From Gammaproteobacteria bacterium (GTDB lineage Bacteria > Pseudomonadota > Gammaproteobacteria > Steroidobacterales > Steroidobacteraceae): 35,894 nt of DNA. Positions 2,235 through 26,595 of the stretch are shown in pieces (the stretch's first letter is position 1; every line of letters begins with the position of its first letter). The translations under genes were made by a program, and so were the position numbers. The stretch lies in the NCBI GenBank assembly GCA_028293805.1, contig JAQGOC010000099.1, positions 1 through 35,894 of the forward strand. The letters are read 5' to 3'. The notes under the pieces were generated by a model. It did not search any database, was not told where the DNA came from, and saw only the letters and a list, made by a program, of their open reading frames with translations.

Positions 2235-4655
2235 ATGTCTTTGCGTAGACAACTCGGCAGGTCGCCATCGATCATCGTAATGACGCTGGCCGTCACACGG
2301 CTCGCGACGGCGGCAGAGCCTGCTGCTCCGGCGGGCCCGGACAACGCCAGCGATGCAGGCACCACGGAGGTCACTGAAGTCCTGGTGACCGCTCGTAAAC
2401 GCGGCGAGGAGCGGCTGCAGGACATTCCCACCTCGATCACCGCTTTCGGCGAGCAGGCGCTGGAAAAAATGGGCGTCAAGGATTTCACGGACTTCGCCTA
2501 CCAGGTGCCCGGCCTCACGTTCAACGATACCGGGGCCGGGGAGAAGCGCTACATCCTGCGCGGCATCCAGTCGCCCGGCCAGGAGCAGGTGGCGATCTAT
2601 TTCGACGAGGTTCCGGCACCAGGCATTCAGAGCAGCACCGGCGACAGCGGCTCGCAGGCGCCCGATCTGAAGCTGATCGACATGGAGCGCATCGAGGTGT
2701 TGAAGGGGCCTCAGGGCACGACCTTTGGTGCCAATTCGCAGACGGGCGCGGTGCGCTTCATCTCGAAGAAGCCGAACCTCAATGAGGTGAGCGGCTCCGT
2801 GCAGGTCGGCGGCGATTACATGCCGGACGGCAACCCGGGCACGGACACCGCCGGGATCTTCAACCTGCCGTTGATCAAGGGGGTGCTCGCCCTGCGCGCC
2901 ACGGCCTACTACGATCACCAGGGCGGGTACATTGACAACGTGCGCCTGGGGATGAACGACATCAACTGGAACAACACCACCGGCGGGCGCGTCACCCTGC
3001 GCTATCAGCCGACGGATGCGACGACGCTCGATGCGATGATCTGGCTGCAGGACCGGCAGACCGGCGGGGCCAACGGGTACTATCCGTTCGACACCTTCCA
3101 TGTGAGGAACAACACTCCCTCGGACCAGGGTTTCAGGGACAATGTGCCCGCATTCGCGTTCTTCCAGACCGGTACGTTCAACACCGCCGATTACGTGCAG
3201 ACGCCGAATCCGGACAAGCAGCAGATCTACAGCCTCAACCTCACGCAAGCTTTCAGCTGGGCATCGCTGACCGCGGCCACTTCGCTGTACAAGCGCAACT
3301 TCGGGTTTTACCGCGACAACACCTGGGCCATCGAATCGCTCGGCGTGGGACCGCCGGGGGCGACCGTCTGCTACAAGAACGCGACCACGACCCAGCCCTG
3401 TCAGCGCTCGGATCTGTTTCCGGAGCTGACGAATCAGACTCAGGACATTACGCAGAAGACCGTTGAAATACGCCTCAACTCTGTCGGCACCGGCGACCTG
3501 CAATGGCTCGGCGGCTTTTTCTACCGCGACCGCGACTCCGGCTTCCAGAGCGTTTCGCCGATCGTCGATCCGAGCACCGGGCTGCCGTATCCGGTTACGG
3601 GACCGCCGCCGGGGTATTCGCTCAATCCGGGCGCCGGCATCGAGGGCTGTCAGCCGTGCGCGCTCGCCCGCTTCAACACGCGCACGATCAAGGAGTCGGC
3701 GGAGTTCGGCGAGTTGAGCTACAAGTTGTTCCACAAGCTCGAGCTCATGGTGGGCCTGCGCGAGTTCGAGGCGCGCCAGAGCGATGCCGGGTTCTACCTG
3801 TTCCAGTTCCCGCTGCTCGGCAACTCATTGCCGCCGCCGACCCAGAGCTCGTTCAAGGAAAACAAGCTCATCAAGAAATACCAGATCTCCTACAAGCCGG
3901 CGGACGACATCACCGTGTATGCGCTGGCGTCGCAGGGCTTTCGTCTCGGCGGCACCAACCAGTCCACGTTCGCACAGGTTCCCAAGGGCTACGCCGCGGA
4001 CTCCCTGTGGAACTACGAGCTGGGCGCAAAGACTTCCTGGTTCGAGCGCCGCCTGACGGTGAATGTCGCCGCATTCGACATCGACTGGTCCAACATCCAG
4101 GTAGCCGGCCGCGACCCTACGGGCTCCTTCGGATTCATCTCGAATGCGGGCACCGCGCGCGTGACGGGCTTAGAGTTCGAGACTTTTGTCCACCCGGTGC
4201 GCGGCCTGGATTTCTCGGCCGGCTTCGAATATCTGCCCGAGCGCCAGTTGACCCAGAATCAGGTGAACGATCAGGTGGTTGCGCCCGGCAGGAAGGGCGA
4301 CAAGCTGCCGCGCATTCCGCAGTTCACGGCGGACTTCTCCGCGCAATACGAGCACAGCCTCGCCGCGGCTCCCGATTGGGCGGCGTTCATCCGCGGCGAC
4401 TGGTCGTATCACGGCTCGTCGGCCACGGACTTCTCACCCAGCTCGGCGGTGTATCGCACGCAGCATGCCTATGACATCACCAACTTCCGCGTGGGTGCGA
4501 CGAACGACAGGACCGGCTACGACCTCGCGTTCTACGTGGCCAATGCGTTCGACGTCCATGGGGATGTCTACCTACTGGCCGCCACGGCCACACCGACCGT
4601 CAAGTACACCAACATGCCGCGGACGATCGGCATCGACGTGACGAAGAAATTCTGA
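2235..4655 (+). CDS. TonB-dependent outer-membrane receptor
   Basis: An 806-residue outer-membrane active transporter. A signal sequence ends near TAAEP (residues ~27-31). A TonB-box-like segment (VLVTARKRGEERLQDIP) leads into the plug domain, with the conserved ITAF...ALEKMG, YILRGI and MERIEVLKGPQGTTFGANSQTGAVRFISKKP stretches. The rest is a 22-strand-type beta barrel that ends in a terminal phenylalanine (VTKKF), as outer-membrane insertion requires. It belongs to the large receptor group that includes siderophore and plant-compound receptors. The ligand cannot be read from the sequence, and no Fur box or siderophore gene is nearby. A GGGGAG ribosome-binding site precedes the ATG. It is divergent from the amidohydrolases and convergent with the DUF6644 cluster, so it may supply a substrate to either. 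Confidence 0.93.
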   Translation: MSLRRQLGRSPSIIVMTLAVTRLATAAEPAAPAGPDNASDAGTTEVTEVLVTARKRGEERLQDIPTSITAFGEQALEKMGVKDFTDFAYQVPGLTFNDTGAGEKRYILRGIQSPGQEQVAIYFDEVPAPGIQSSTGDSGSQAPDLKLIDMERIEVLKGPQGTTFGANSQTGAVRFISKKPNLNEVSGSVQVGGDYMPDGNPGTDTAGIFNLPLIKGVLALRATAYYDHQGGYIDNVRLGMNDINWNNTTGGRVTLRYQPTDATTLDAMIWLQDRQTGGANGYYPFDTFHVRNNTPSDQGFRDNVPAFAFFQTGTFNTADYVQTPNPDKQQIYSLNLTQAFSWASLTAATSLYKRNFGFYRDNTWAIESLGVGPPGATVCYKNATTTQPCQRSDLFPELTNQTQDITQKTVEIRLNSVGTGDLQWLGGFFYRDRDSGFQSVSPIVDPSTGLPYPVTGPPPGYSLNPGAGIEGCQPCALARFNTRTIKESAEFGELSYKLFHKLELMVGLREFEARQSDAGFYLFQFPLLGNSLPPPTQSSFKENKLIKKYQISYKPADDITVYALASQGFRLGGTNQSTFAQVPKGYAADSLWNYELGAKTSWFERRLTVNVAAFDIDWSNIQVAGRDPTGSFGFISNAGTARVTGLEFETFVHPVRGLDFSAGFEYLPERQLTQNQVNDQVVAPGRKGDKLPRIPQFTADFSAQYEHSLAAAPDWAAFIRGDWSYHGSSATDFSPSSAVYRTQHAYDITNFRVGATNDRTGYDLAFYVANAFDVHGDVYLLAATATPTVKYTNMPRTIGIDVTKKF

Positions 4656-4750: not shown

Positions 4751-5221
4751 TTAGACGAAGCCGATGGCGCGGCCCGCCATGCTGACAGCGAACCAGAAGA
4801 GCAGCGACAATGCGACAGCGGTCCTCGCGAGCCACGGTTTCTGCGCTTCGCTGGCGGCGACCCTGCCGAACAATGACGCCTGAACGATCACGGCAAGCAG
4901 CAGCAACAGCATCTTCAGGGCGAACGCCGGATTGTAGAAGTAATGCCTGGGGCTGCCGATGAACATCAGTAACCCGGTCCCCACCGCGAGCGCCAGGCCA
5001 AGCCAGATCAGCGGGGTGGCCTCCCTGGCCACTTGCGGCACCGTCTGCTGCTTGAGAATGAGTCCCAGCAGACGCAGGCTGATCAGGACCAGCGAGGCCA
5101 GCAGCAGCACGAAGCCCATCACGTGGAGGACCTGAAAAGCCGCGATGAGCAGGTGATTGGATCTGCTGATCCCATGCGAAAGCCAGGAGCCCTGGATCCA
5201 GTTCAATACGGCGGATGACAT
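4751..5221 (-). CDS. DUF6644 family membrane protein (paralogue 2)
   Basis: A 156-residue inner-membrane protein with four predicted transmembrane helices; its function is unknown. It matches the DUF6644 pattern: a short amphipathic start (NWIQGSWLSHGI), a first helix with a histidine (FQVLHVMGF) followed by LRLLGLIL, then LALAVGTGLLMFIGSP, an NPAFALKM turn with lysine, and a last helix ending in GRAIGFV. It aligns along its length with the gene just upstream, sharing the LRLLG..L, SG/TGLLxF, PA(W/F)xxK and GRxI positions. The two are therefore tandem paralogues and may form a heterodimer. Start choice: the ATG at 5221 matches the family N-terminus; the open frame to 5365 upstream is a shadow. 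The intramembrane histidines could bind heme or metal, which is inference. Confidence 0.75.
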   Translation of the reverse strand: MSSAVLNWIQGSWLSHGISRSNHLLIAAFQVLHVMGFVLLLASLVLISLRLLGLILKQQTVPQVAREATPLIWLGLALAVGTGLLMFIGSPRHYFYNPAFALKMLLLLLAVIVQASLFGRVAASEAQKPWLARTAVALSLLFWFAVSMAGRAIGFV

Positions 5222-5253
5222 GTTCGCGTCCCGCGTGAGGCCCTCGAGGGCGC

Positions 5254-5757
5254 TCACGCCCAGTGAGGAATGTAGGCAATGAGCCGGCCGCAGATGATGA
5301 CCAGCGTCCAGAGGGTGAGCGAGGCCAGACCGGCATATCTGACCCCGCGCGGCACTGTCGGGCACTCCGCCAGCGCGCCCGGGCGCCTGGCGATCACAAA
5401 CTCGAAATACAGGGCATTCAGTCCGGCAAATCCGATGAAGGCGAACTTGAATATCCAGGCGGGACTGGCGACGACGGTGGCGGCTTCGGCCCAGAACAGC
5501 AGGCCGCCGGAGATGAACACGAGGGCGAATCCGGCCAGTACATAGGGCCGCAGACCGTGCAGGACACTCCTCACCGGCACTTGTCTGAGGATCACTCCCA
5601 GCAGGCGCAGATCGGTCAGAAAGATCAGGCCGACCGACACCGAAAGCGCAATGAGATGCGTGCCTTCAATGATGGGAAAGGCATAGCGGGACTCTGCAAT
5701 TGACGTTCCGAGCGGCGTGGCTTCAATGGCGTCGGCGAGAGCGGCGATGGTGGTCAT
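5254..5757 (-). CDS. DUF6644 family membrane protein (paralogue 1)
   Basis: A 167-residue protein with four predicted transmembrane helices. It opens with LADAIEATPLGTSIAES, then a first helix carrying the family's P..E..H pattern (FPIIEGTHLIAL), TDLRLLGVIL, VFISGGLLFW, PAWIFKF and a final helix with CGRLIAYIPHW. This is the DUF6644 layout, and no function has been assigned to the family as far as I know. The ATG at 5757 overlaps the TGA of the upstream gene as ATGA and has GAAGG before it, so the two are translationally coupled. The second DUF6644 gene starts 32 bases downstream. The conserved membrane histidine and the company of a c-type cytochrome lipoprotein make a redox or metal role conceivable but unproven. 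Confidence 0.78.
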   Translation of the reverse strand: MTTIAALADAIEATPLGTSIAESRYAFPIIEGTHLIALSVSVGLIFLTDLRLLGVILRQVPVRSVLHGLRPYVLAGFALVFISGGLLFWAEAATVVASPAWIFKFAFIGFAGLNALYFEFVIARRPGALAECPTVPRGVRYAGLASLTLWTLVIICGRLIAYIPHWA

Positions 5758-6761
5758 GGCGCCGCCTTCTTGGGTACGGCGACCTGGCCGAAGGGGCCGT
5801 TGTTTTCCACGCATGGGCGCTCGACGTGGTCCGCGATGAGCTCCTTGCCGGGACTATTCGCAAGGGGGACTTCATAGTGCCAGCCATCCTGCGGATCTCC
5901 TGCTACGTAGCGACGGTTCGGAATCGTCACGGTCCAGGGTTGTGTATAGACGGTGGGATCGGTGAAAGTTGCTTCGTAGTCGAAGCGCTTACCGGCATTG
6001 TCGAAGATGTAACGTTCCCGAATGTGCACGTTCTCGCTGGCAAATTCGCCAGTCCGAGCAAATCGCGCCTTGGAGTTGCTGTTGGTGACATCGACCACCA
6101 GGGTGTTGCCTTCCCAGTGGCCGCGCGAGTCGCCATTCCAGAGCTTGATGTTCTGGGGCAGATGCGGTTTGCCATCCAGATGAATGATCCGGGTTCCGGA
6201 ATTGAAGAGGAACACCACGGCCTGCGGAAACTGCCGGATCTCATACCCGTGCCACATGAAGGATTTCGGGATCCCCGCGGGGGCGCAGCGCGCAAGCGGC
6301 TCGATGTATTCCTGCCGGGTCGCGTTCCAGAGCCCCGCGGCGAACTCCTGCTGCTTTGCGCGTGCCCACGGCTGAAACGGAACCTGCCCGTCCGCGGGGT
6401 CGCTCACGCGGCTTGGCGCACGCTCTGCGCGCGGGCCCAGAGCGCGCTTGCGGCGAACCGGGTCGCCGGGTGTGCCGCCTTGAGGATCCGTAAAGTTGTC
6501 GTGGTTCGCGATCGAGTTGGACCAGTCGCCCTGAATGTCGGGTTGTCCGTCGCCAAGGCGGTGTCCGGTCCACCTCCCGGAGGGGATTGTCGTGAAACTC
6601 TTCTCCCAACGAATCCCCGGTGCGGCTGCCGGCGTTGCCGGCTGGGCCGCGGAGTCCTGCGCGCCCGCGGGTTGTGCGGATGCGAAAGTCCGGGCGACCA
6701 CCCACACCGCGGCTACCAGGCTCAATCGGCGCGGACCGGACCGTGTTTCTGTGCTCCTCAT
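5754..6761 (-). CDS. Exported protein of unknown function with GDSRGHW signature (paralogue A)
   Basis: A 335-residue protein of unknown function. The N-terminus (MRSTETRSGPRRLSLVAAVW...) looks like a signal peptide, followed by an Ala/Gln/Pro-rich stretch. The mature part has GQPDIQGDWSN near residue ~75, a cysteine in ARCAPAGIP, and then the signature GDSRGHWEGNTLVVDVTN. After that come an H(I/V)RERY strand and YTQPWTVTIPNRR. It aligns with the protein encoded just upstream through the signature and the following ~70 residues. These families are common in soil gammaproteobacteria and acidobacteria and lack a known function. Start choice: the ATG at 6761 begins the signal peptide; the open frame continues to 7004 but overlaps the upstream gene. 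Its TGA overlaps the DUF6644 start. Confidence 0.75.
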   Translation of the reverse strand: MRSTETRSGPRRLSLVAAVWVVARTFASAQPAGAQDSAAQPATPAAAPGIRWEKSFTTIPSGRWTGHRLGDGQPDIQGDWSNSIANHDNFTDPQGGTPGDPVRRKRALGPRAERAPSRVSDPADGQVPFQPWARAKQQEFAAGLWNATRQEYIEPLARCAPAGIPKSFMWHGYEIRQFPQAVVFLFNSGTRIIHLDGKPHLPQNIKLWNGDSRGHWEGNTLVVDVTNSNSKARFARTGEFASENVHIRERYIFDNAGKRFDYEATFTDPTVYTQPWTVTIPNRRYVAGDPQDGWHYEVPLANSPGKELIADHVERPCVENNGPFGQVAVPKKAAP

Positions 6762-6817
6762 AAGTCTCTTACCTGCTCTGGCTGCCCTCGCTTGCTGCGC
6801 GGCCGATGGAGCGCCGC

Positions 6818-7597
6818 TCATTGCGCGGCGGGAACCGGGTAGTACTTGTCGTAATCCAGCGTGAAGCAATAGTTCTCGATCAGCTGGAAGTCTTTCTCGC
6901 GGTGCCGGTACAGGAGCACCTCGATGTCCCAGGGGCGACTGAACACGTTGGGATCCTCGATCGTCGCCCGGTAATCGATGGTGTTGGCATCGAGCAGCTT
7001 CCACCGCTCGACCACGTGCATGTCTTCGCTGTGAAAGTTACCGGCGCGATCGAGCCAGGTCTCGTCTTCGAAGTCCGTGACATCCACGACCAGGGTGTCG
7101 CCATCCCAATGGCCACGCGAGTCGCCCAGCCAGAACTGGTGCTTCTCGGCCGGGTGCTGCGTACCGTTGGTGTTGATCGTGCGCACGGAGTGGCCGAATT
7201 CAAAAACGAGCGTCAGATCCTGGGCGCGCTGCAGGATTTGGAACGGCTCCGGATAATAGACGCCGCGTGGCGTACCCAGGGTCCAGCACTTGAGGCGCGG
7301 ATCCTGGCTGTCCCGGACCGCGAAGTTCCTCTGTTTCTGTCCGAGCGCCGCAGGCAGGTAGGGAATGACATTGCCCACCACGATCCCCGCGCTCGGCGGA
7401 GCGTCCTTGCGCGTCGAATGCGGCTCGAGATCGAAATCGGCAGCGCTAGTGGTCTGCCAGATGCCCGAGAAATCCGGCTTGCCGTTCTGGCGCGCAATCC
7501 GGTCGGCCGCCTCCGCCCCGCTCGCGAACAGCACCGGCGAGAGCAGCAGGCACGCCATTCCCATCCTCCAGGCTAACGAAGTCAGCATGGGGTGCAT
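6818..7597 (-). CDS. Exported protein of unknown function with GDSRGHW signature (paralogue B)
   Basis: A 259-residue exported protein of unknown function. A clear signal peptide (MACLLLSPVLFASGAEA) is followed by GKPDFSGIWQTT, the same G(K/Q)PDxxGxW start as paralogue A. The core has FEFGHSVRTINTNG, then GDSRGHWDGDTLVVDVTDFED, an MHVVERWKLL strand, and FSRPWDIEVLLYRHREKD near the C-terminus. The shared motifs show that A and B arose by duplication. The proteins look beta-rich, with no recognisable catalytic motif. The ATG at 7597 follows the TAG of the DUF6152 gene without a gap; an alternative ATG lies three codons in. It lies 56 bases upstream of paralogue A in the same apparent operon. 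Confidence 0.78.
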   Translation of the reverse strand: MHPMLTSLAWRMGMACLLLSPVLFASGAEAADRIARQNGKPDFSGIWQTTSAADFDLEPHSTRKDAPPSAGIVVGNVIPYLPAALGQKQRNFAVRDSQDPRLKCWTLGTPRGVYYPEPFQILQRAQDLTLVFEFGHSVRTINTNGTQHPAEKHQFWLGDSRGHWDGDTLVVDVTDFEDETWLDRAGNFHSEDMHVVERWKLLDANTIDYRATIEDPNVFSRPWDIEVLLYRHREKDFQLIENYCFTLDYDKYYPVPAAQ

Positions 7598-8050
7598 CTA
7601 TTTCTGAGCGCTGCCTGGCGGCTGCGGAACGTCCTGCGCCCCGCCGGTCTGGAAAGTGCGGCCGTCATGCAACGCAATCGTGACGGCGTAGCCGAAAGGC
7701 CCCCCGTTCTTGGCTCGATAGCCTTTCACGTGGACCTCGGCTCCCGGTTGCAGGTCCGTTTTCTGCAGCCCTTTGCCCGACAGAGCGTTGGGCGCCCCGA
7801 GCTCGACCCCCCAGTTCGTGATGCTGCCGTCGGCTGCTTTGACGTCGAAATACAGCCAGCTATGCGGATTGACCCACCTGGCCTTGGTGACGACGCCAGC
7901 GAGATCGAGCGGCTGTTCACCGTCGTACTCCGCAGCGAACGCGTGATGAGCAAACGTCGGCGCCGGCCCGGCGATGAGCCCGAGGGACGCCACGATCGAC
8001 AGAAAACTTCCGCGGAGTTCGAGCCGCGGACCTTGCAACGAAATCGCCAT
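7598..8050 (-). CDS. DUF6152 family exported protein
   Basis: A 150-residue periplasmic protein of the DUF6152 family, function unknown. The signal peptide ends SLGLIAGPAPTFA, directly followed by HHAFAAEYD, the family hallmark. If cleavage is after Ala34 the mature protein starts with His-His. A second hallmark, WVNPHSWLYFDVK, supplies another histidine, and the rest reads like a small OB-fold or beta-barrel domain (GVVTKARW...VHVKGYRAKNG). An N-terminal histidine with further conserved histidines suggests copper or other metal binding, by analogy to histidine-brace proteins; this is inference. A GGAG lies 6 bases before the ATG at 8050. It heads the tight gene run 7598, 6818, 5754, 5254, 4751, all on the minus strand. 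Confidence 0.82.
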   Translation of the reverse strand: MAISLQGPRLELRGSFLSIVASLGLIAGPAPTFAHHAFAAEYDGEQPLDLAGVVTKARWVNPHSWLYFDVKAADGSITNWGVELGAPNALSGKGLQKTDLQPGAEVHVKGYRAKNGGPFGYAVTIALHDGRTFQTGGAQDVPQPPGSAQK

Positions 8051-8419
8051 GAAAATCTCCGGTTTGCGACGGCCTTATGGTTGGGATGCAGGCAGCGCGC
8101 CTGCCCCAGCGCGGCTTCGTGTTGCCTGCGCGCCGAGCGCTCGTCCTGAGCGGCTCTACTGCAAACGGCGGGCCAGTCCGCGGGCCGCCCCGGGCGCGCT
8201 TTCCGCATGCGGCCAGACGCACGATAAGCCGTTGAAGCAAACTGGATTTCTTCCTTGCGTGTGCGAGACCGCGGAGACCAACACGGTTGCTGCGCCTGGT
8301 TGCTGACGCGCTTTCGCCGCAGGTTTGCTTCGTAGGCAGCAGGCTGCCATCAGGGGTGCTGCTCCACGAGCATCCGAGGACGGCTCGTGGACGCGTGCTT
8401 CCGAGGATTGCCCGCACGA
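8051..8419. other. Gap without a convincing gene
   Basis: This is 369 bases between the DUF6152 gene and the cytochrome lipoprotein. The short open frames here do not look like proteins: they are rich in Arg, Ala, Pro and Cys and have no domain or credible start. One hairpin is listed separately. Any promoter for the DUF6152 operon should lie here, but I could not find a convincing -35/-10 pair. Confidence 0.5.
8364..8390. terminator. Weak candidate hairpin downstream of the cytochrome lipoprotein
   Basis: CCACGAGC pairs perfectly with GCTCGTGG (8 bp) around an 11-base loop, about 30 bases past the minus-strand stop at 8420. No T-tract follows. Confidence 0.3.
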
Positions 8420-9070
8420 TTATCTGGCGGGATTGCTTGCGATTTTCCCGTACCGCGGCTCACCCTCCCTCGGCCAGGGTGGGATGACCTGCTTGGGATA
8501 CCAGAAGGTCAAATGGCAGCTTTCGCAGACCTCATCGAGGTTTCCGCCGGCTGTCACCAGGGCTTGCGCATTTCGCGCATCGATGGCGGCCAACAATGTG
8601 CGGGCCGTCTCACGCAGCGTCAGCGCATACTGATTGAAAGCGGCGCGATTGCCCGCGATCCGTTTCTCGATGTCCGCCGAATCCAGTGCGCCCGCGGCTT
8701 CCGCTGGAAAGGGGGCGCGGGAAAGCGGGCGACCCGCGACGGTCAGCAGATTTCCAGCCTCAATCAAAACGATGGCATTGTGTCGGACCGCTTCCCATTC
8801 TGCCGCGGTTCGCGGCTGCTTCTCCTCCTCGCCCGCCTTGCTGGCGGTGGTCTCCACCGCGTCCCAGATGCTATCCGCGGAAGCGTCGACTTCCGCCTGC
8901 ATGAGTTCCTGGAGGGTGGCGATGGGTTGTATGGCGGCCTCCACATGAGGTGTCGGCGCGGGGCGCGGCGAGCACCCTGACAGTGCCAATAACGCACCGC
9001 ACAGGGCGAATAGTGCACCGGCGGTCAACGGTACGGAAGGGCACCCAAGGCGTTGTCCAGCCGCTGTCAC
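8420..9070 (-). CDS. c-type cytochrome lipoprotein
   Basis: From the GTG at 9070 this is 216 residues. A hydrophobic stretch ends in a lipobox, ALLALSGC, so the mature protein is probably a lipid-anchored periplasmic protein. The mature part is helical, like cytochrome c556 or c-prime, and carries a single C-terminal heme-attachment site, CESCH, followed by LTFWYPKQVIPPW. The position of the CxxCH near the C-terminus is typical of class II cytochromes c. It should act as a periplasmic electron carrier. The start is uncertain: no ATG fits and no ribosome-binding site stands out. GTG at 9070 gives a normal lipoprotein leader, a TTG at 9028 is an alternative, and the frame stays open to 9205. 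It lies on the same strand as the DUF6152 operon, 369 bases upstream. Confidence 0.72.
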   Translation of the reverse strand: MTAAGQRLGCPSVPLTAGALFALCGALLALSGCSPRPAPTPHVEAAIQPIATLQELMQAEVDASADSIWDAVETTASKAGEEEKQPRTAAEWEAVRHNAIVLIEAGNLLTVAGRPLSRAPFPAEAAGALDSADIEKRIAGNRAAFNQYALTLRETARTLLAAIDARNAQALVTAGGNLDEVCESCHLTFWYPKQVIPPWPREGEPRYGKIASNPAR

Positions 9071-9507: not shown

Positions 9508-10032
9508 ATGAAGACCCTGAAACTGACAGCACTTATTGCGGGAAGTCTGATGGCGGCAGCGCCGTTCGCCTACTCCGCCGGCGCTCCCGCCGCGGCCCAG
9601 GTATCGGCGACTGCGCCCGCCGCTGCGCCTGCTGGTGCGCCCGCTGCTGCGCTCGCTGCTGCGCCCGCTGCTGCGCTCGCGTCCAAAGCCCACGTTCTCT
9701 CGCGTGCCGAGCTCGACAAGCTGCTCGCGCAGCCGGCCAAAGTGCTCGTGATCGACGTGCGGCGCCCCGACGAGGTCAGCTCCATCGGTGGACTGCCGGT
9801 GTACCTGAGCATCCAGGCGAACGACTTGGAGAAGAGCACCGCGTGGATTCCCAAGGATCGTACTCTGGTGCTGCTGTCGAACCACGCCGGACGGGCGGGG
9901 AAAGCTGCCGATCTGCTTGCGGCCAAGGGATTCAAGGTGGCTGGCGCCGCGGGCGCGCAGCTGTATGAGAAGGACGGCGGCACGCTGACGCACATCGCGA
10001 AGCCGCCTGCCGCCGCCAGCGCGCAGAATTGA
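9508..10032 (+). CDS. Exported rhodanese-like protein lacking the catalytic cysteine
   Basis: A 174-residue protein. The signal peptide (MKTLKLTALIAGSLMAAAPFAYSA) is followed by an Ala/Pro-rich linker of about 45 residues and then one rhodanese domain: AKVLVIDVRRPDEV, an IPKDRTLVLLS strand, and the active-site loop region ending in GKAADLLAAKGFKV. Active single-domain rhodaneses such as PspE have CNAGRQSG at the loop. Here the gap-free counterpart is NHAGRAGK, so the cysteine is asparagine and sulfur transfer by the usual route is unlikely. It may instead bind a ligand or partner in the periplasm. The DNA for the linker is a 24-base tandem repeat. Start choice: the ATG at 9508 opens the signal peptide; the same frame is open to 8950 but has no protein-like content. 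Expression is probably sigma-54 dependent. Confidence 0.82.
   Translation: MKTLKLTALIAGSLMAAAPFAYSAGAPAAAQVSATAPAAAPAGAPAAALAAAPAAALASKAHVLSRAELDKLLAQPAKVLVIDVRRPDEVSSIGGLPVYLSIQANDLEKSTAWIPKDRTLVLLSNHAGRAGKAADLLAAKGFKVAGAAGAQLYEKDGGTLTHIAKPPAAASAQN
9612..9680 (+). repeat. 24-base tandem repeat, about 2.9 copies
   Basis: Copies begin at 9612, 9636 and 9660. The last two are nearly identical (TGCGCCCGCTGCTGCGCTCGC plus a short tail) and the first is degenerate. It lies inside the rhodanese-like gene and encodes the Ala/Pro/Leu linker. Copy number could vary between strains. Confidence 0.75.
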
Positions 10033-13111: not shown

Positions 13112-15004
13112 TCAGAGCTTCATCTTGATGCCGGCAAAGGCGCCCAGGCCGGGCTGCAGAAACCCCGTAGGGTTTTCGTAGCGGCGATCCAAGAGATTAT
13201 TGACGCGCCCGAAAATCGCCAGGTTGCCGGTGATGTCGAAGCTGGCGGCGATGTCGACGGTCGTATACCCGGGAGCATCGAACCGTGGAATCGAAAAGTC
13301 GCGATTCCCATCCACCCATGAGCTCACCGCGAGGACGGTGGCATCGAGCGACAAACGAGGGGTCGCCTGCCAGGCGGTATTCAACGACACCTTGTGCTTC
13401 GGCCGGCGCAGCAGCTCCTGATGCGCAATGGTGTCGGTGGCCTCGGTGAAGGTGTAGTCCAATCTCACCCTGACCGTCTTGACCGGCTGCCAGGCGACGA
13501 AGCTTTCGGCGCCCTCGGTCACGGCGCGGCCGACGTTCGCGTAGGAGGTGAAGTCCGCGCTGTTCGCGATCAGGTTGCGGATGTTATTGCGAAACCAGGT
13601 GACCCCGAAACTCAGCGCGTCGCCGAGCGCCGCCTGTTCGAAGCCGACGTCGTAGCCGAGGCTGCTTTCCGGTTTCAGCTGCGGATTCGCAAAGAAGCCG
13701 AAATCCGGATAATTGTGGAACATCTCATCGAGGGTGGGGGCCTTGAATCCCGTCCCGAGGCTCGCCCTGAGCTTGGTGCCGGTGTCCTTGATGAGGTAGA
13801 CCGGTGCAAGGCGATAGGTCACCTTGCCGCCGAAGCGGTCGTTGGCATCATACCTCACGCTGAGCGTGTTGAAGAAGTTGCCGCCGTAAGCCGATTGCAG
13901 CTCGCCATAGCCCGAATCGAGGGTCGTGCTGGCAGAAACTGGCAGGCGTATCTCGTCCCGCTGGTGTTCGGCGCCGAGAACGAGGGTTGCGTTCGTCGTG
14001 AGCTTCACGTTGCCCTGCCAGTCGACTTTGAGCCGTTCGCCGGCGTAGTCGATCGGCGGGCCGTGGGGACTGAAATCAAAGGACTTGATGCTGCTGTAGG
14101 CCATACCCAGGGTCTGCTCGAGGGCACCGTCGAACGCGAGGAGATGCCCCGTCCCGCGGGTGTAATACTGGCGCGTATTGTTGGCGCTTTGGAGTGCGTC
14201 CGGGGTCGATGGAAAGGTGCTGAAGTCATCGCCGGTGAGGCGCAGGTGCGTGTCCGTGTAGCGCGCCACGAGACCGAGATCGAAGTGCTCAGTCACGTCG
14301 AAGCCGAGCTTCGTCGATGCGGTGTGATTATCGTAGTAATCGTCGTTGCGCAGCTCTCCGGGCGCGAGCAGATTCAGCGGAGTTACCGGTGTCGCCCCGG
14401 AATGGAAATGCTCCAGGTTCGCGCTGTAGTGAAACGGCCCGGCCGAGCCGCTGATTCCAGCGGTTTGATTGAAGGTATCGAACGATCCCCCCTGGGCACT
14501 GGCCTCGAACCGGGCGGGGCCCGAGCCGCTGCGGGTGATGATATTGATCACGCCGCCGATGGCATCGGAGCCGTAAAGGCCACTTTGCGGACCACGGAGC
14601 ACCTCGATCGTCTGAATGTCCTGGGTCAGAAACTGGCCGAAGTCAAACGCTCCGCTGGAGCTGCTCGGATCGCCGACGTCGATGCCGTCGACGAGGACCT
14701 TGGTGTGGTTCGAATTCGTGCCCCGCATGAAGACCGTGGTCTGGCCGCCGGGACCTCCCGATTGCACGACGTTGAGTCCGGGGACGTCCTTCAGCACGTC
14801 CGGCAGCGTTTGTCTCTGCTTCGCAGCAATCTCATCTGCGGTTATGACAGTGATGCTGCTGGCGACATCCACTTCTGGAGTGGGAATACGGGTCGCGGTG
14901 ACTACGACGGCGTCCGCCGTGCCCTCTTCAGCTGCGCTCGCCGACCCGACGAAGGCGACTAGAGCAAGTGGAACGGACCCTAAAAAAAACGATATTTTGC
15001 GCAC
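13112..15004 (-). CDS. btuB: BtuB-like TonB-dependent receptor, probable cobalamin receptor
   Basis: A 630-residue outer-membrane receptor. Signal peptide: VRKISFFLGSVPLALVAFVGSASA. A TonB box (DAVVVTATR) precedes a plug with TLPDVLKDVPGLNVV, FMRGTNSNHTKVLVDGIDVGDPSS and IEVLRGPQSGLYGSDAIGGVINIITR, all typical of the BtuB branch. The barrel includes LRASLGTGFKAPTLDEMF and ends RYENPTGFLQPGLGAFAGIKMKL, close to the usual BtuB C-terminus. Length fits BtuB (about 600-650). Start choice: the GTG at 15004 has AGGAG six bases before it; the open frame to 15055 would add a tail in front of the signal peptide. A cobalamin riboswitch about 150 bases upstream strongly supports corrinoid import. No btuCD or cobalamin synthesis genes are in the window. 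Confidence 0.92.
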   Translation of the reverse strand: MRKISFFLGSVPLALVAFVGSASAAEEGTADAVVVTATRIPTPEVDVASSITVITADEIAAKQRQTLPDVLKDVPGLNVVQSGGPGGQTTVFMRGTNSNHTKVLVDGIDVGDPSSSSGAFDFGQFLTQDIQTIEVLRGPQSGLYGSDAIGGVINIITRSGSGPARFEASAQGGSFDTFNQTAGISGSAGPFHYSANLEHFHSGATPVTPLNLLAPGELRNDDYYDNHTASTKLGFDVTEHFDLGLVARYTDTHLRLTGDDFSTFPSTPDALQSANNTRQYYTRGTGHLLAFDGALEQTLGMAYSSIKSFDFSPHGPPIDYAGERLKVDWQGNVKLTTNATLVLGAEHQRDEIRLPVSASTTLDSGYGELQSAYGGNFFNTLSVRYDANDRFGGKVTYRLAPVYLIKDTGTKLRASLGTGFKAPTLDEMFHNYPDFGFFANPQLKPESSLGYDVGFEQAALGDALSFGVTWFRNNIRNLIANSADFTSYANVGRAVTEGAESFVAWQPVKTVRVRLDYTFTEATDTIAHQELLRRPKHKVSLNTAWQATPRLSLDATVLAVSSWVDGNRDFSIPRFDAPGYTTVDIAASFDITGNLAIFGRVNNLLDRRYENPTGFLQPGLGAFAGIKMKL

Positions 15005-15084
15005 GAGGTTCTCCTGGTTCGGACCAGAAGCCGGCATGCAAAGGCACACGGTCAATTGTGTAACTGATGTTCAACCGAGGGCCC

Positions 15085-15114: not shown

Positions 15115-15154
15115 ACGGTTTCCCCCGCAGTTATCAGCGCACCCCGGCCGGTAA

Positions 15155-15332
15155 CAGGACGACGGCGCGAGGCGGGTGTCCTGGCTTCCGGGTCGTCGCT
15201 CTCGTCCTCCTTCCCAAGACCTCCGCGGCCTCAGTGGATTCAGGGACTTTCGCTCGCCGGTTACAGTTGCGGGGGCAGCCGCGGTTTCTCACCGCGTTCC
15301 AATTTAAATCCCTTGCGGGAACCTTGCGCGTG
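15155..15332 (-). ncRNA. Cobalamin riboswitch
   Basis: Read on the minus strand, the conserved blocks occur in order. GGAACGCGGTGAGAA is followed by GCTGCCCCCGCAACTGTAA, then GCGAAAGTCC, CCACTG and TTGGGAAGG. Last comes the B12 box GAAGCCAGGACACCCGCC (about 15170-15187), which matches the rAGYCMGgAgACCkGCC consensus at nearly every position. These are the core of the AdoCbl-type riboswitch aptamer. It precedes the BtuB-like receptor and should shut off its expression when cobalamin is plentiful. The outer boundaries are estimates. Confidence 0.93.
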
Positions 15333-15338
15333 CGGCGG

Positions 15339-15344
15339 ATCATA
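15339..15344 (-). promoter_or_regulatory. Possible -10 element for the riboswitch transcript
   Basis: TATGAT on the minus strand lies just ahead of the riboswitch 5' end. The best -35-like hexamer (TTGTCG) is 20 bases upstream, which is too far for a strong sigma-70 promoter. Confidence 0.3.
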
Positions 15345-18110: not shown

Positions 18111-19136
18111 TCAGCGCTCGGTCGAGGTGTCGATATCGACTGCCTTGCCGCTTCGGGCGCTGCGCAGGAGCGCTTCGAGCGTCAGCATGATGTCGATCGA
18201 TTCCTCCGCGGAAGCTCCCGTCCAGGAGGCCGGTCCCTGCCTTACCAGACGCTCGAATACCTCGGCTTCCGCCAGAAAACCGTTCGTCGCGGGGACTTCT
18301 ATGACTTCCGCGGCCGTGTCCCAGCCCTTTCCGCGCCTCAGCTGCAATACCGGCGGCGCAGCCGGCGAAGGGTGGTTGAAGAAGGTTGTCTGCAGTACGC
18401 CCTCCGATCCGGCAATGAGCGCCTGCCGATGCGCGGTGGTGCTGAAGCTGCAGCTGATTTGCGCGAGCAGGCCGCTCGGGAACTCGAGCGTCGCAACGAG
18501 TATTCGGTCCACTCCGCTGTCTGTCCAGTGTGCCACGGCTTGTACGCGCGACGGACGCTCCCTCGCCACCATGCGCACGAGGCTGACGGCATAGCTTCCG
18601 GCGTCCATCAGAGCACCACCGGCAAGCACCGGGCTCAAGCGGATGTTCACCTCCTGGCTCAGGGTAAAGCCGAAGCTGGCCTGCATCATCTCCACTTTTC
18701 CAAGGGCACCTGCGTCCAGCAGTTCTCGCATCTTCAACGTCTGCGGTTGTGCCCGATACGGGTATCCCTCGACCAAATACACCCCGTGCTTCCTGGCAGC
18801 ATCGAACATCGCGCGGGCCTCCGCGGCCGTGGCCGACAACGGCTTCTCGCAGAGCACGTGCTTTCCCGCTTCGACGGCCCGAATCGACCATTCCGCGTGC
18901 ATGCTGTTCGGCAGAGGGATATAGACGGCGTCGATTTCGCTGTCGGCCAGTAGCGCTTCATAGGAGCCATGGGAGTGTGGTATTCCAACCTCGCGTGCGA
19001 AGGCGGCCGCCTTGGCGCGGTCGCGACTTGCCACGGCCGTCACCGTAACCGTCGACGATGGGCGTACACCTGATACGAAGGCTCGCGCGATATTGGCAGT
19101 GCTGAGAATTCCGATGCGCAGGGGAGAAGGAGGCAT
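18111..19136 (-). CDS. Gfo/Idh/MocA family oxidoreductase
   Basis: A 341-residue NAD(P)-dependent oxidoreductase. The N-terminal Rossmann domain opens with PLRIGILSTANIARAF, followed by VTAVASRDRAKAAAFA, IDAVYIPLPNSMHAEW and the family's conserved VLCEKPLS, whose lysine is catalytic. The C-terminal alpha/beta domain includes YLVEGYPYR, GALMDAGSYAVSLVRM and the usual long sheet. Members act on sugars, cyclitols or related alcohols; the trimmed C-terminal domain resembles the dihydrodiol/xylose dehydrogenase group. The substrate is unknown. Start choice: the ATG at 19136 fits the family N-terminus; a GTG at 19175 would add 13 residues. It is divergent from the molybdenum enzyme genes and convergent with the folate enzyme, so it is probably transcribed alone. 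Confidence 0.88.
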   Translation of the reverse strand: MPPSPLRIGILSTANIARAFVSGVRPSSTVTVTAVASRDRAKAAAFAREVGIPHSHGSYEALLADSEIDAVYIPLPNSMHAEWSIRAVEAGKHVLCEKPLSATAAEARAMFDAARKHGVYLVEGYPYRAQPQTLKMRELLDAGALGKVEMMQASFGFTLSQEVNIRLSPVLAGGALMDAGSYAVSLVRMVARERPSRVQAVAHWTDSGVDRILVATLEFPSGLLAQISCSFSTTAHRQALIAGSEGVLQTTFFNHPSPAAPPVLQLRRGKGWDTAAEVIEVPATNGFLAEAEVFERLVRQGPASWTGASAEESIDIMLTLEALLRSARSGKAVDIDTSTER

Positions 19137-19228
19137 TGTGGGAGCTGGTCTCGGGAACCGTGATGGCTTCGTCACGTTTTAAGCCTCTGGCGCCAAATCG
19201 TAAAGAGCTATTGCTTGCGGAAGGCATG

Positions 19229-19771
19229 ATGGACACGCGGGTATTCGGCGGTACTTCCCAGGCGGGCGCAGCGCAATCCAGCGAAGCCATCGGCATCAGC
19301 CTGGTCATCAATGGCAGGCGGCGGGACTTCGTCATCGAGCCCTGGGTGACCCTGCTGGATCTGTTACGGGAGCAGGAACACCTGACGGGCACCAAGAAGG
19401 GCTGTGACCACGGTCAATGCGGTGCTTGTACCGTCCTCGTCGACGGCAAGCGCATCAACAGCTGCCTCGCACTGGCGGTGGCAAGAGACGGAGCCCAGGT
19501 AACTACCATCGAGGGGCTCGCCTGCGAGGGGCTCGCCGAGGGCCATGGGCTGCACCCCCTGCAGCAGGCGTTTGTGGACCACGATGCGCTCCAGTGCGGG
19601 TACTGCACGCCGGGGCAGATCTGTTCGGCCCAGGGTCTCATCAACGAGGGGCACGCCAGGAGCCGCGACGAAGTACGTGAGTCGATGAGCGGCAACCTAT
19701 GTCGTTGTGGTGCCTACACCAACATCGCCGCCGCCGTAATGGAAGTGCTGGAAAAGGCGGACACGCGGTGA
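19229..19771 (+). CDS. paoA: [2Fe-2S] subunit of a molybdenum aldehyde/xanthine oxidoreductase (PaoA-like)
   Basis: A 180-residue electron-transfer subunit. The N-terminal plant-ferredoxin-like domain has C59, C64, C67 and C79 (KKGCDHGQCGACTV...INSCL). The C-terminal helical domain has C123, C126, C158 and C160 (LQCGYCTPGQI...GNLCRCGAYTNI). These bind the two [2Fe-2S] clusters of the xanthine oxidase family, which carry electrons from the molybdenum site to FAD. E. coli PaoA is exported by Tat; no twin-arginine signal is visible here from any plausible start, so the enzyme may be cytoplasmic. Start: ATGs at 19226 and 19229 follow GGAAGG closely; an ATG at 19163 is an alternative. It overlaps the next gene as GTGA. 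Confidence 0.9.
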   Translation: MDTRVFGGTSQAGAAQSSEAIGISLVINGRRRDFVIEPWVTLLDLLREQEHLTGTKKGCDHGQCGACTVLVDGKRINSCLALAVARDGAQVTTIEGLACEGLAEGHGLHPLQQAFVDHDALQCGYCTPGQICSAQGLINEGHARSRDEVRESMSGNLCRCGAYTNIAAAVMEVLEKADTR

Positions 19772-20781
19772 ATCGCTTCAGCTACGTGCGCGCTGCCGGG
19801 GTTGCGGAAGCGGTGCGCGAGGGTTCAGCCAGGCAGGTGCGCTTCCTCGCCGGCGGCACCAACCTCGTCGATCTCATGAAGGAGAATGTGGAGCGTCCGC
19901 AGCGGCTCGTCGACATCAACCGGCTGCCGCTGCACAAAATCGACGACCTGGAAGGCGGCGGGCTCAGGCTGGGTGCGCTCGTGACCAATGCGGACACGGC
20001 GTACGATCCGCGCGTCGAGCGCCGCTATCCACTGTTGGCTTCGGCGATCCTTGCGGGTGCCAGTCCGCAGCTGCGCAATGCTGCCACCAACGGCGGCAAC
20101 CTCAATCAACGAACGCGCTGCTACTATTTCTATGATCCTGCAACGGCCTGCAACAAGCGCCAGCCCGGCTCGGGCTGCGGCGCCATCGGAGGTGTCAACC
20201 GCATTCACGCGATACTGGGGGCCAGCGATCAATGCATCGCCACCCATCCCTCGGACATGTGCGTTGCCCTGGCCGCGCTTGACGCACAGGTTCGCGTCAC
20301 CGGTCCCGACGCAGACCGCGTGATTGCGTTCAGCGAGTACCACCGGTTGCCCGGTGATCAGCCCTGGCGGGACAACGATCTGCGCCCAGGCGAGCTCGTC
20401 ACCGCGATCGACCTGCCTGCCGAGGATTTCTCTTCTCACTACACGTACCTCAAGCTCCGGGATCGGCTGTCCTACGCGTTTGCCCTCGTGTCCGTGGCGG
20501 TCGCGATGCGGCTCGATGGCGAGCGCATCACCGAAGTGCGGGTCGCCCTTGGCGGCGTAGCACACAAACCCTGGCGGTCGCCTGTGGCGGAAAGCGGATT
20601 GGCGGGAGAGAAAGCCTCACAGGCTAACTTTCTCGCCGCCGCTCATGTCCTGACGGAGGGCGCCGTGGGACAGGGAGGCAATGACTTCAAGATCGAGCTT
20701 GCGCGGCGCGCGATCGTCCGGGCCCTGAAGCAGGCCGCGAACGGTACTCCGCAGTCGCAAACCGACAAACGCGTCTTTTAG
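19768..20781 (+). CDS. paoB: FAD subunit of a molybdenum aldehyde/xanthine oxidoreductase with a [4Fe-4S] insertion (PaoB-like)
   Basis: A 337-residue subunit. The FAD-binding region is seen in FLAGGTNLVDLMKENVERPQRLVDINRLP and in ATNGGNLNQRTRC. The diagnostic feature is the cysteine set C118, C128, C137 and C156 (RTRCYYF...ACNKRQPGSGCGAIGG...DQCIATHPSDMC), which in E. coli PaoB binds an extra [4Fe-4S] cluster not found in most xanthine dehydrogenases. The CO-dehydrogenase flavoprotein C-terminal domain follows (VRVALGGVAHKPWR). Start: the GTG at 19768 overlaps the upstream TGA as GTGA. The next gene begins 15 bases after its stop. Confidence 0.92.
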   Translation: MNRFSYVRAAGVAEAVREGSARQVRFLAGGTNLVDLMKENVERPQRLVDINRLPLHKIDDLEGGGLRLGALVTNADTAYDPRVERRYPLLASAILAGASPQLRNAATNGGNLNQRTRCYYFYDPATACNKRQPGSGCGAIGGVNRIHAILGASDQCIATHPSDMCVALAALDAQVRVTGPDADRVIAFSEYHRLPGDQPWRDNDLRPGELVTAIDLPAEDFSSHYTYLKLRDRLSYAFALVSVAVAMRLDGERITEVRVALGGVAHKPWRSPVAESGLAGEKASQANFLAAAHVLTEGAVGQGGNDFKIELARRAIVRALKQAANGTPQSQTDKRVF

Positions 20782-20795
20782 TGGAGGGAGCGAAC

Positions 20796-23058: not shown

Positions 23059-23373
23059 CTAGGGAGGATTGGCGGCAGGCGTGGCTCGCTCCATGGCCGG
23101 GACTGGATAAACGATCCGCGTCAGTGGGTCAAGACTCCCCAGGGCCAACAGAATGAGCAGCCAGAGCAGTCCGGCAGCGGCAAACAGGCGCACAACCGTG
23201 GGCCCGCGCCCGATTTGCATGAAGATCGCGGCGACCATCCCGACCATCAGCAGGGCCGGAAGCAGCAGCAGCGGCCGCGCCGGGCGGCCGATGGGCAAAA
23301 AGCTCGCGCCGACCTCGATCGCCAGCACGCCCAGCAGCAGCCCCCAGGTCAGCAGTAATCGGCGCGGGCTCAT
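23059..23373 (-). CDS. ctaF: Small cytochrome c oxidase subunit IV-like membrane protein
   Basis: A 104-residue protein with three predicted transmembrane helices (LLLTWGLLLGVLAIEVGASFL, LLLLPALLMVGMVAAIFMQIG, VVRLFAAAGLLWLLILLALG). It matches the size, topology and gene position of the bacterial subunit IV (CtaF/COX4-like), whose FMQIGRG turn after helix 2 resembles the family's hydrophobic-MH(L/I)K region. It is an accessory subunit of the caa3 oxidase. The ATG at 23373 overlaps the subunit III stop as ATGA; the frame is open to 23892 but that is a shadow of subunit III. It is the last gene of the respiratory operon. Confidence 0.75.
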   Translation of the reverse strand: MSPRRLLLTWGLLLGVLAIEVGASFLPIGRPARPLLLLPALLMVGMVAAIFMQIGRGPTVVRLFAAAGLLWLLILLALGSLDPLTRIVYPVPAMERATPAANPP

Positions 23374-24020
23374 GGACCGCGCCCTATCAGATAGATCAAT
23401 GGAAAAAGGACAATCCACACCATGTCGACGAAGCTCCAATACAAGCCGACCACGGCGACCGGTGTCGAATACTGCGCCGAGAATTCCCCGCGTCCCGCGC
23501 GCCGGATGATCCAGCCGACGAGCCCCAGTCCGGCCAGCAAGTGCAGGCCGTGCAGCGCGGTCGCGACGAAGTAGAAGACGAAGAACAATTGCGCGCCGGT
23601 GCGCAGCTCCCCGGTGATCGCAAAGCGCGGACCGGGAAAGAGGTGCCGGGCGAGATCCTCGTGCCACTCGATCCCGAATTTCAGGATCAGAAACGCCAGG
23701 CCCAGTACCCAGGCCAGCGCGCAGCACTGGATCAGCCGTCGCGTGTTGCTCGCTTCGATGAAGGCGACACCCGCGGTATAAAAGGCGCTGCTCGTGATCA
23801 GGATGACAGTGTTGAGCGTGCCGATGGCGAGCGCCGTCTGCCTGGCCCCCGCGTCGAACCCGGCCTGATTCCAGTGGCGGCAGACGATCCAACTCAGGAA
23901 CAGCACACCGAAGAACAGGACCTCACTGGCCAGAAACAGCCACATGCCGGCAATCGCCGTTCGCGCCTGGTGGCGCGCGCTCTCGTATTGGAACGCATGC
24001 GGTAGAGCGGCGTCACTCAT
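23370..24020 (-). CDS. ctaE: Cytochrome c oxidase subunit III
   Basis: A 216-residue membrane protein with about five transmembrane helices, the short form common in caa3 oxidases. It shows [16 protein letters not shown] (the conserved E in helix 1), an [20 protein letters not shown] segment, a [19 protein letters not shown] helix with the conserved HGLH, and [18 protein letters not shown] at the C-terminus, where the family has YWHFVDVVWLFLF. Here the first histidine of that motif is serine. Subunit III stabilises the proton-uptake side of subunit I. Both ends overlap neighbours as ATGA. Confidence 0.93.
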
Positions 24021-25645: not shown

Positions 25646-26595
25646 GAGGGCTCCTGCTGGGACAGGGATTTGAGGTAGGCGATGATCTTCAGAAGCTCCT
25701 CCTCGCTGATCTCCCCGGCGAAGGAGGGCATCACGGGCAGATAGCTCGCGACTCGCTGTCGCGCCGGTGTCAGGATGCAGTCGCGCAGATAGCGGTCGTC
25801 CGCTTTGACGACCCGGCCATCGGCCAGGGTGACGGGACTTCCGTAGAGCCCGGCAAGCGAGGGAGCGCGCACTGTGCTCTGTGACTGGTTTGCCCCGGCC
25901 CCGTCTCCTCCATGGCAGCCGCTGCAGCCGTAACGCATGAACAAAGTCTTTCCCGCGGCAGCCAGCGTTTCTCCCGCATCGCTGCGCGCGAGCCATTTCT
26001 GATAGTCGGCCTTGGGCATGGCCACGATCTCCCCGACCATGTTCGCGTGATCCACGCCACAGAACTGCGTGCAGAACAGGTGATAGGTCCCCGGAATGTC
26101 CACCCGGAACCACAGTGCCTCGTAGCGGCCTGGCAGCACGTCGTGCTTGATCCGAAACGCGGGGACGGAAAAATCATGGATGACGTCCTCGGAAGTCATC
26201 ACCAGCTGGACATCCAAGCCGACCGGCAGGTGTATCGCATTGATCTCGCGCTGGCCCCCGTCATGCTCCGCCTTCCACATGAACTGCTTGCCGATGACAT
26301 GGATCTGCAGCGCATCCGCCGGCGGCTGGAAAAGCAGCAAGTAAAGCTTGGCGCCCCAGACGAACAGACCGAAGAAGGCCACCAGGGTCGCGGCAGTCCA
26401 AGCCGCTTCCAGCCGCCACGTCTTGCGCGGCAGCGTGCCGCGATCGATGTCGCTGCCGGCGCGGTACTTGAACATGTAGAGCAGCATCAAACCGAACACG
26501 AGCGCCAGGACTGCGCAAGAAATAAGGACTAGCGCGAAGATCAGGTAGTCAACCTGCGTTGCGTTGTGAGTGGCGGCGGTGAGCCAGAGGTTCAC
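25642..26595 (-). CDS. ctaC: Cytochrome c oxidase subunit II fused to cytochrome c (caa3-type)
   Basis: A 317-residue subunit. Two N-terminal transmembrane helices ([22 protein letters not shown] and [20 protein letters not shown]) are followed by a cupredoxin domain with the CuA ligands H140, C175, C179, H183 and M186 ([12 protein letters not shown]). After that comes a cytochrome c domain with heme site C224-C227-H228 (CSGCH) and the axial-Met candidate in YLPVMPSF. The fused heme domain defines it as caa3: it can take electrons directly from Alternative Complex III. No lipobox or cleaved signal is obvious. Start: a GTG at 26595 that overlaps the upstream TGA as GTGA. Confidence 0.95.

Follow-up and report, generated by a model that had tools for sequence, protein, structure and literature searches.

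Among described envelope systems, the CopC/CopD pair, whose soluble half CopC is a beta-sandwich, is among the closest to the six-gene cassette reported here. The cassette lies on the minus strand of contig JAQGOC010000099.1 (assembly GCA_028293805.1), a 35,894-nucleotide stretch from a gammaproteobacterium of the Steroidobacteraceae that was analysed at its full length and is hereafter called the window. Its genes code for a DUF6152 protein, two exported proteins of a family carrying a GDSRGHW motif (GDS; the window copies are GDS1 and GDS2), a tandem pair of DUF6644 membrane proteins (DUF6644a and DUF6644b) and a c-type cytochrome lipoprotein. In the CopC/CopD protein YcnJ, the CopC histidine H24 and the CopD histidine H295 are reported to be both needed for respiration under copper limitation (PMC13344008). 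Like that system, the cassette places an exported protein with a predicted N-terminal histidine beside a CopD-superfamily membrane protein, and it too can occur as a two-gene unit. Unlike CopC, DUF6152 is predicted to adopt an oligonucleotide/oligosaccharide-binding (OB) fold, and the soluble half is apparently unrelated. DUF6644 is a remote relative of CopD, and the cassette adds barrels, a cytochrome and a TonB receptor. Because the window proteins miss the CopC and CopD profiles (no match of DUF6152 to CopC, or of either DUF6644 protein to CopD, PF05425, at E ≤1 in Pfam), we suggest that the cassette works like CopC/CopD but do not file it as a member.

We favor, tentatively and with a probability of roughly 45%, a model where the cassette is an envelope module for metal handling and redox chemistry. 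It would act as a CopC/CopD-style relay whose soluble half has an OB fold and to which ligand-binding barrels are added, and the metal would probably be copper. The grounds are a conserved gene set, conserved histidines, the relationship to CopD and natural DUF6152-GDS fusions, together with predicted folds. The initial annotation of this DNA had proposed one dedicated redox or metal-handling system in the cell envelope. The unity of the system has held. Conservation of His-His at the N-terminus and the link to CopD make the metal role more likely, and the cytochrome does the same for the redox role; metal binding, electron transfer, the choice of copper and the substrate are inferred.

Other comparisons apply to DUF6152 alone. 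Lytic polysaccharide monooxygenases carry an N-terminal and an internal histidine, are found as gene expansions and have a fold of their own. DUF6152 resembles these and other histidine-brace enzymes in both histidines and in its expansions, but its predicted fold differs. The families DUF4198, DUF6702 and Ang-1/Ang-2 were found by their N-terminal histidine and shown to bind metals, and the main text of that report describes a histidine exposed by signal cleavage, as we predict for DUF6152, as well as DUF4198 genes beside TonB receptors and anglerases attached to permeases (PMC12537917). It gives an N-terminal histidine for 79% of DUF4198 and 65% of DUF6702 proteins, versus His-His in every complete DUF6152 sequence we surveyed; DUF6152 (PF19649) is not mentioned in that main text. 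No paper naming DUF6152, DUF6644 or the GDSRGHW proteins was found in the open-access literature searched. The cassette is real and conserved, and in that literature it is unnamed.

Conservation of the gene set and its two partner types

In a survey of 99 related genomes, DUF6152 was found in 14 and DUF6644 in the identical 14 (13 of each above the cut-off). GDS, queried with GDS1, occurs in 13, of which 12 are common to that set. One relative (G050) retains the complete window arrangement, and another (G058) retains all of it except the cytochrome within the stretch taken, with GDS1 identities of 84% and 71%, respectively. Locus L038 has the window's gene order, L046 has the order cytochrome-DUF6644-DUF6644-GDS-DUF6152, and L047 and L048 carry the cassette as two convergent halves. 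In L046, L047 and L048, as in L117 and L118, order or strand is shuffled yet the set is retained.

A four-row DUF6152 alignment was also run against a species-genome collection, and the best 80 loci of at least 591 stretches (at least 584 relatives) were taken, a ranking that favors relatives of the window DUF6152. The 20 proteobacterial loci (L111-L130, from 19 genomes) all carry GDS, which lies within 500 bases of DUF6152 in 19 and is present in at least two copies in 19; DUF6644 is found in 14 (one locus is cut by a contig end). The order DUF6152-GDS-GDS-DUF6644-DUF6644-cytochrome is conserved through the cytochrome in six of these loci, from Azoarcus (with a TonB receptor inserted), Derxia, Methylomonas, Methylobacillus, Methylococcaceae and Methylococcales. 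Among 57 Acidobacterial loci, many of them on short contigs, GDS lies within 500 bases of DUF6152 in 53 and DUF6644 is present in seven. A strong cytochrome match was obtained for 10 of the 20 proteobacterial loci and two of the 57 Acidobacterial ones. DUF6152 and GDS are also fused in 31 distinct frames, with DUF6152 first in all 31, and its N-terminus thus stays free.

It is well supported that the six genes form one conserved system, because they are co-located in several proteobacterial groups and in Acidobacteria, share a genome distribution and include gene fusions. Neither outcome that the initial annotation named as a refutation was observed: the families are not scattered independently, and the histidines are invariant. 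That they stand together by chance or through shared locus ancestry, with no common function, is scarcely credible to us. Neighborhoods beyond the core do vary widely, and the small share of Acidobacterial loci with DUF6644 would suit such an origin, many of those loci being on short contigs. However, the retention of the set through shuffled order and strand contradicts this explanation, and both the fusions and the identical DUF6152 and DUF6644 genome sets argue against it.

The six-gene set is one composite form. In an evenly drawn sample of the class, DUF6152 occurs in seven of 276 genomes; DUF6644 was found by Pfam in three of the 276, and in the other four it also lies beside DUF6152 according to a custom profile built partly from these loci. 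Within the window's phylum, 48 of 397 sampled genomes carry DUF6152 (47 above the cut-off). Partners were analysed at 36 loci from the class and phylum samples, the phylum loci being the 30 best-scoring genomes. At 23 of the 36, the DUF6152 protein starts with HHGW, and we call this the 'HHGW' type (three were assigned by reading). DUF6644 directly adjoins all 23 on the same strand, 12-138 bases away as measured between profile matches. It follows DUF6152 at 22 loci and precedes it at one (G189), and in G172 it is split across two frames. No GDS gene lies within 1.5 kb of any of the 23. By contrast, 12 of the 13 loci with other DUF6152 types have GDS at 58-220 bases, and the remaining one (L260) has neither GDS nor DUF6644 within 1.5 kb. 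Three of these 13 carry both GDS and DUF6644 on a single strand; in L258, DUF6644 lies on the opposite strand. DUF6152 thus has two kinds of partner, DUF6644 for the 'HHGW' type and GDS for the other, and the simplest form is a two-gene unit of DUF6152 and DUF6644. Elsewhere, the core is either this pair or DUF6152 with GDS.

DUF6152 and DUF6644 as predicted halves of a metal relay

The window DUF6152 has a predicted signal peptide at residues 1-34 and a predicted mature start of HHAF. Our survey gave 230 distinct matches, of which three partial ones were left out, and all 227 complete sequences have His-His at the predicted signal-peptidase site. The preceding residue is A in 205, S in 17, G in three, V in one and T in one, and position -3 is mostly a small or aliphatic residue, as at signal-peptidase sites. 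Cleavage sites of this kind follow the -3/-1 rule, and on that basis mature DUF6152 is predicted to begin His-His. A further histidine lies downstream in the pattern [NAGP][PAG]H in 225 of the 227, as NPH in 214. One scan pattern contained AHH and biased the contig-scan set, but the sets found by profile agree. The sequence pattern of His-His and xPH is compatible with a histidine brace.

The mature form of the window DUF6152 was modelled with AlphaFold2 (AF2; pLDDT 89.1, pTM 0.82), and the model matches OB folds such as PriB and SSB (best Z 9.4, rmsd 2.1, 81 aligned), which suggests that DUF6152 has an OB fold. No histidine-brace protein appears in the structure-match list for this model, an absence that excludes nothing. 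When the DUF6152 profile was run against solved structures, an adhesin was returned at E 1.6e-5, but none of its individual stretches passed, and we dismissed it as noise. For a natural DUF6152-GDS fusion, the combined alignment was dropped because DUF6152 rows were stretched into GDS, and the domains were modelled apart; L139 was omitted from alignment A5 as an incomplete sequence.

In DUF6644a, the invariant residues are H34, G84, K104 and W150 (alignment A4). Over 103 DUF6644 sequences, H38, G89, K110 and R182 are invariant. The conserved histidines that the initial annotation saw in DUF6152 and in the DUF6644 membrane helices are therefore genuine, except that each DUF6644 protein has one invariant membrane histidine rather than several.

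For comparison with CopD, we aligned 42 sequences that were all Pfam CopD hits, none of them shared with the set of 103. Profile-profile comparison (hhalign) matched DUF6644 to CopD at 94.8 and 95.1% (E 5e-8 and 3e-8, over 136-137 columns), versus 1.1 and 1.5% for the same pair reversed and 0.7-7.1% for all reversed pairs. The DUF6644 profile also matches 14 of the 42 CopD rows at E ≤0.01 (database of 42). In Pfam at E ≤1, DUF2214 is found in 16 of 39 DUF6644 members (best 1.3e-6) and CopD in two (best 1.9e-4), and the window DUF6644b has a weak DUF2214 match (16.6 bits, below the cut-off of 34.1). These profiles place DUF6644 as a remote relative of CopD within the CopD superfamily. Thin alignments of HemJ and ExbB gave 8.9% and 0.1% against DUF6644 and were unusable, and deeper alignments with reversed controls were used instead.

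HemJ-like proteins have a role with haem. In our comparisons, the profiles of CopD and HemJ match at 82% and those of DUF6644 and HemJ at 62%, and one of the reversed HemJ controls reached 7%; no paper linking HemJ with CopD or DUF2214 was found in the open-access literature searched. The cassette might accordingly be a haem or tetrapyrrole system, in which the paired histidines of DUF6152 and the histidines of DUF6644 ligate haem, which the cassette would transport or mature for the adjacent cytochrome. The cytochrome gene does belong to the fullest cassettes. However, an N-terminal His-His exposed by signal cleavage would be more in keeping with a metal chelate than with a pocket for haem, and the cytochrome profile labels none of the neighbors in 29 two-gene regions. 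We consider this explanation very unlikely.

GDS barrels, gene expansion and possible functions

GDS1 and GDS2 have no Pfam family above the cut-off and no NCBIfam family at all. The GDS profile was seeded with both, and GDS1 alone finds GDS2 (36% identity, query residues 74-231, E 5.7e-24). An AF2 model of GDS1 (pLDDT 94.8, pTM 0.89) gave 50 listed structure matches, which are barrels of the calycin type such as FABP, retinoid-binding and NanoLuc entries (best Z 8.8, rmsd 3.4, 121 aligned). Residues 6-205 of the model align with such barrels. The model suggests that GDS is a calycin barrel of the lipocalin or FABP kind, and from these matches one may reasonably guess that GDS binds a hydrophobic ligand in the periplasm. 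Unlike known calycins, GDS has no match to solved structures at E ≤1 by profile (nor does DUF6644). A strongly conserved arginine, Glu-Arg pair, aspartate and two cysteines are seen in the family (alignment A6 holds 81 of 111 chosen representatives), with no invariant histidine and no recognisable catalytic motif in the conserved residues. Tandem GDS-GDS fusions in one frame occur in L170, L182 and L156. A search of plasmids with GDS1 returned eight records, all below 60% identity and annotated as hypothetical or unannotated.

Three genomes of one family (G065, G079 and G092) each have at least 44 copies of DUF6152, even in a 1.6 Mb genome, and at least 26 of GDS, whereas DUF6644 is present in one, three and five copies, respectively. 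In 20 regions of G065 and G079 (L221-L240), 25 of 62 labelled open reading frames (ORFs) are fused. Neighbors of the G065 copies include sulfatases (5 of 82 ORFs) and also amidohydrolases. Together, the expansion and these neighbors favor the view that the copies linked to barrels act as enzymes, each specific for its substrate. Thus, DUF6152 and GDS might form a secreted copper-dependent oxygenase or peroxygenase, with DUF6152 carrying the copper and GDS holding a hydrophobic substrate. DUF6644 and the cytochrome would supply electrons or copper, and expanded copies would serve different substrates. The many natural fusions fit this idea, as do the Acidobacterial loci with a PQQ-dehydrogenase-type gene (12) or an Oar-type outer-membrane barrel (17; one member of each was called). 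Histidine-brace enzymes are reported to oxidise resistant substrates (PMC10952591). Nevertheless, the 'HHGW' type consistently lacks a nearby GDS gene, and GDS has neither an invariant histidine nor a recognised catalytic motif, though charged residues and cysteines are conserved. Both features dampen our enthusiasm, and we regard an oxygenase as doubtful.

The metal relay that we favor could operate as follows. DUF6152 would be exported and cleaved to begin His-His, and a transition metal, most likely copper, would be held by the amine and ring of His1 with the xPH histidine or the neighboring histidine, the OB fold forming the body of the protein. DUF6644, either singly or as the a/b pair of the window, might take the metal (or electrons) from DUF6152 at the inner membrane. 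In the window's form, the TonB receptor would deliver a ligand or a metal complex to the periplasm, where the two GDS barrels would bind it next to DUF6152. The lipoprotein cytochrome might shuttle electrons between the DUF6152 site and the respiratory chain.

Several observations weigh against this relay. The CopD match depends on alignment depth, falling to 0.3% with six CopD sequences and 1.6% with five, and the superfamily includes HemJ-like proteins, meaning that DUF6644 may bind haem. For a metal importer, it is odd that DUF6644 remains at 1-5 copies where DUF6152 and GDS have multiplied. Genes flanking the two-gene unit have for the most part no link to metals (109 ORFs, with 25 of their 88 families shown; 4 of 113 neighbor ORFs were left out of A12 and 8 of 104 out of A11). 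Finally, both fold assignments come from predicted models with modest scores. Foldseek gave no match at E 0.001 or better for the DUF6152 model and two for GDS1 (best 6.7e-4), and the best Z scores for both models are little above the 7-8 typical without a clear match.

A broader proposal, which we consider unlikely, is that DUF6152 represents a new and widespread class of N-terminal-histidine copper proteins with an OB fold. Its partners, CopD-type or calycin barrel, would be exchangeable, and genomes with dozens of copies, many of them fused to a barrel, would use them as periplasmic copper enzymes acting on different hydrophobic substrates.

Gene layout, surroundings and significance

The initial annotation had the coordinates and junctions of the six genes correct by ORF check and Pfam, and also the families of DUF6152, the twin GDS, the twin DUF6644 and the c-type cytochrome, as well as the adjoining TonB receptor (Table 1). 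DUF6152 and GDS1 meet directly (7598/7597), GDS2 and DUF6644a overlap by ATGA at 5757-5754, and gaps of 56 and 32 bases separate GDS1 from GDS2 and DUF6644a from DUF6644b. Another 369 bases lie between the cytochrome end and the downstream DUF6152. Promoter and terminator scans gave results at about shuffle levels. The cytochrome has a CESCH motif near its C-terminus and, by eye, an LSGC lipobox; its assignment to the class II cytochrome c' family is above the cut-off but marginal.

Table 1. Cassette genes and flanking genes of the window.
Feature	Coordinates	Strand	Support
CYT, c-type cytochrome lipoprotein, 216 aa, remote cytochrome c' type	8420..9070	-	PF01322 27.6 bits, cut-off 26.5
DUF6152 protein	7598..8050	-	PF19649 96.8 bits, cut-off 27
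GDS1, exported GDSRGHW-motif protein	6818..7597	-	AF2 model, calycin-like barrel predicted
GDS2, second, longer GDSRGHW protein, same family as GDS1	5754..6761	-	GDS profile E 3e-75
DUF6644a, membrane protein, CopD superfamily	5254..5757	-	PF20349 33.7 bits, cut-off 27
DUF6644b, second of tandem pair	4751..5221	-	PF20349 47.5 bits, cut-off 27
TonB-dependent receptor, convergent to cassette	2235..4655	+	PF00593 and PF07715
Rhodanese-like exported protein, divergent from CYT	9619..10023 (core; frame ends 10032)	+	profile E 4.6e-56

A related TonB receptor is found in 15 of 27 loci compared (the family was called on one member), and the receptor is a probable outer-membrane partner of the cassette. 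Beyond the cytochrome lie the divergent rhodanese-like gene and then a sigma-54 activator. A related rhodanese-like copy occurs in 12 others of 107 loci searched, and the window copy has no Pfam family at E 1e-5. Five of 13 copies, picked by pattern, have no cysteine in the core, nor does the window translation, and the copies checked lack the catalytic cysteine of a rhodanese sulfurtransferase. In L125 and, by eye, L128, the rhodanese-like protein is in one frame with an SMP-30/gluconolactonase domain.

Another possibility is a sulfur-acquisition module, where the TonB receptor would import an organosulfur compound that GDS binds and that is oxidised or cleaved in the periplasm. Of 20 cassette genomes, 14 carry a family 2A encapsulin, whose cargo is a cysteine desulfurase (13 of 19 if L143, chosen for its encapsulin, is left out), versus five of 276 in the class sample (four above the cut-off). 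In L121, L123 and L143 the encapsulin lies inside the stretch taken, and in L243, which is the region of L120, it is at a distance of about 11 kb; these loci come from separate groups. This encapsulin family is reported to be upregulated on sulfur starvation (PMC8049743), and rhodaneses are reported to be enriched in its operons (PMC8346489). In L038 and L128, putative sulfate exporters of the YeiH-like kind, which score far under the NCBIfam cut-off, also point to sulfur, as do choline-sulfate, sulfate-transport or PAPS-reductase-type genes near five DUF6152-DUF6644 pairs of one family (L295, L296, L301, L302 and L306; sample members by Pfam). However, the encapsulin is absent from all eight genomes of the window's genus and family, and in 11 other encapsulin regions of cassette genomes a cassette gene is within the stretch in only one (L243). 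The cassette genomes are also taxonomically clustered, such that the enrichment is confounded, and the rhodanese copies checked lack the cysteine. We therefore think a sulfur role quite unlikely.

Other neighbors are found at individual loci. A DUF411 gene, which we take to code for a copper protein, adjoins one DUF6152-DUF6644 pair (L052), and an ABC ATPase with an FecCD permease adjoins the pair in L282 and, by similarity, in L283 of the same genus. In L120 and L122, a cytochrome b561-type gene and a c'-like cytochrome follow the cassette (by similarity, read by eye); L120 is without the DUF6644 pair, and the b561-type gene may be a substitute.

Elsewhere in the window, a cobalamin riboswitch at 15154-15341 (-) (Rfam RF00174, 111 bits) is located upstream of another TonB receptor at 13112-15055 (-), which is thus probably for vitamin B12. 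Three genes at 19136-23045 (+) encode a xanthine dehydrogenase-type molybdenum hydroxylase (the large subunit was called, the others identified by eye). The region 23370-34102 (-) codes for COX1, COX2 with cytochrome c, and COX3, together with NrfD- and Fer4-containing proteins, and resembles an alternative complex III and caa3 oxidase cluster.

The frequency of DUF6152 among the sampled genomes of the phylum indicates that this is a common but unnamed envelope system. Three families of unknown function can now be tested jointly. If our model is true, a relay like CopC/CopD would have arisen twice in nature, the second time around another soluble fold, and DUF6152 would be one more family of N-terminal-histidine metalloproteins, with near-universal conservation of that feature. 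In that case, the many DUF6152 and GDS copies in some genomes would indicate a group of periplasmic metalloproteins that has so far gone unrecognised.

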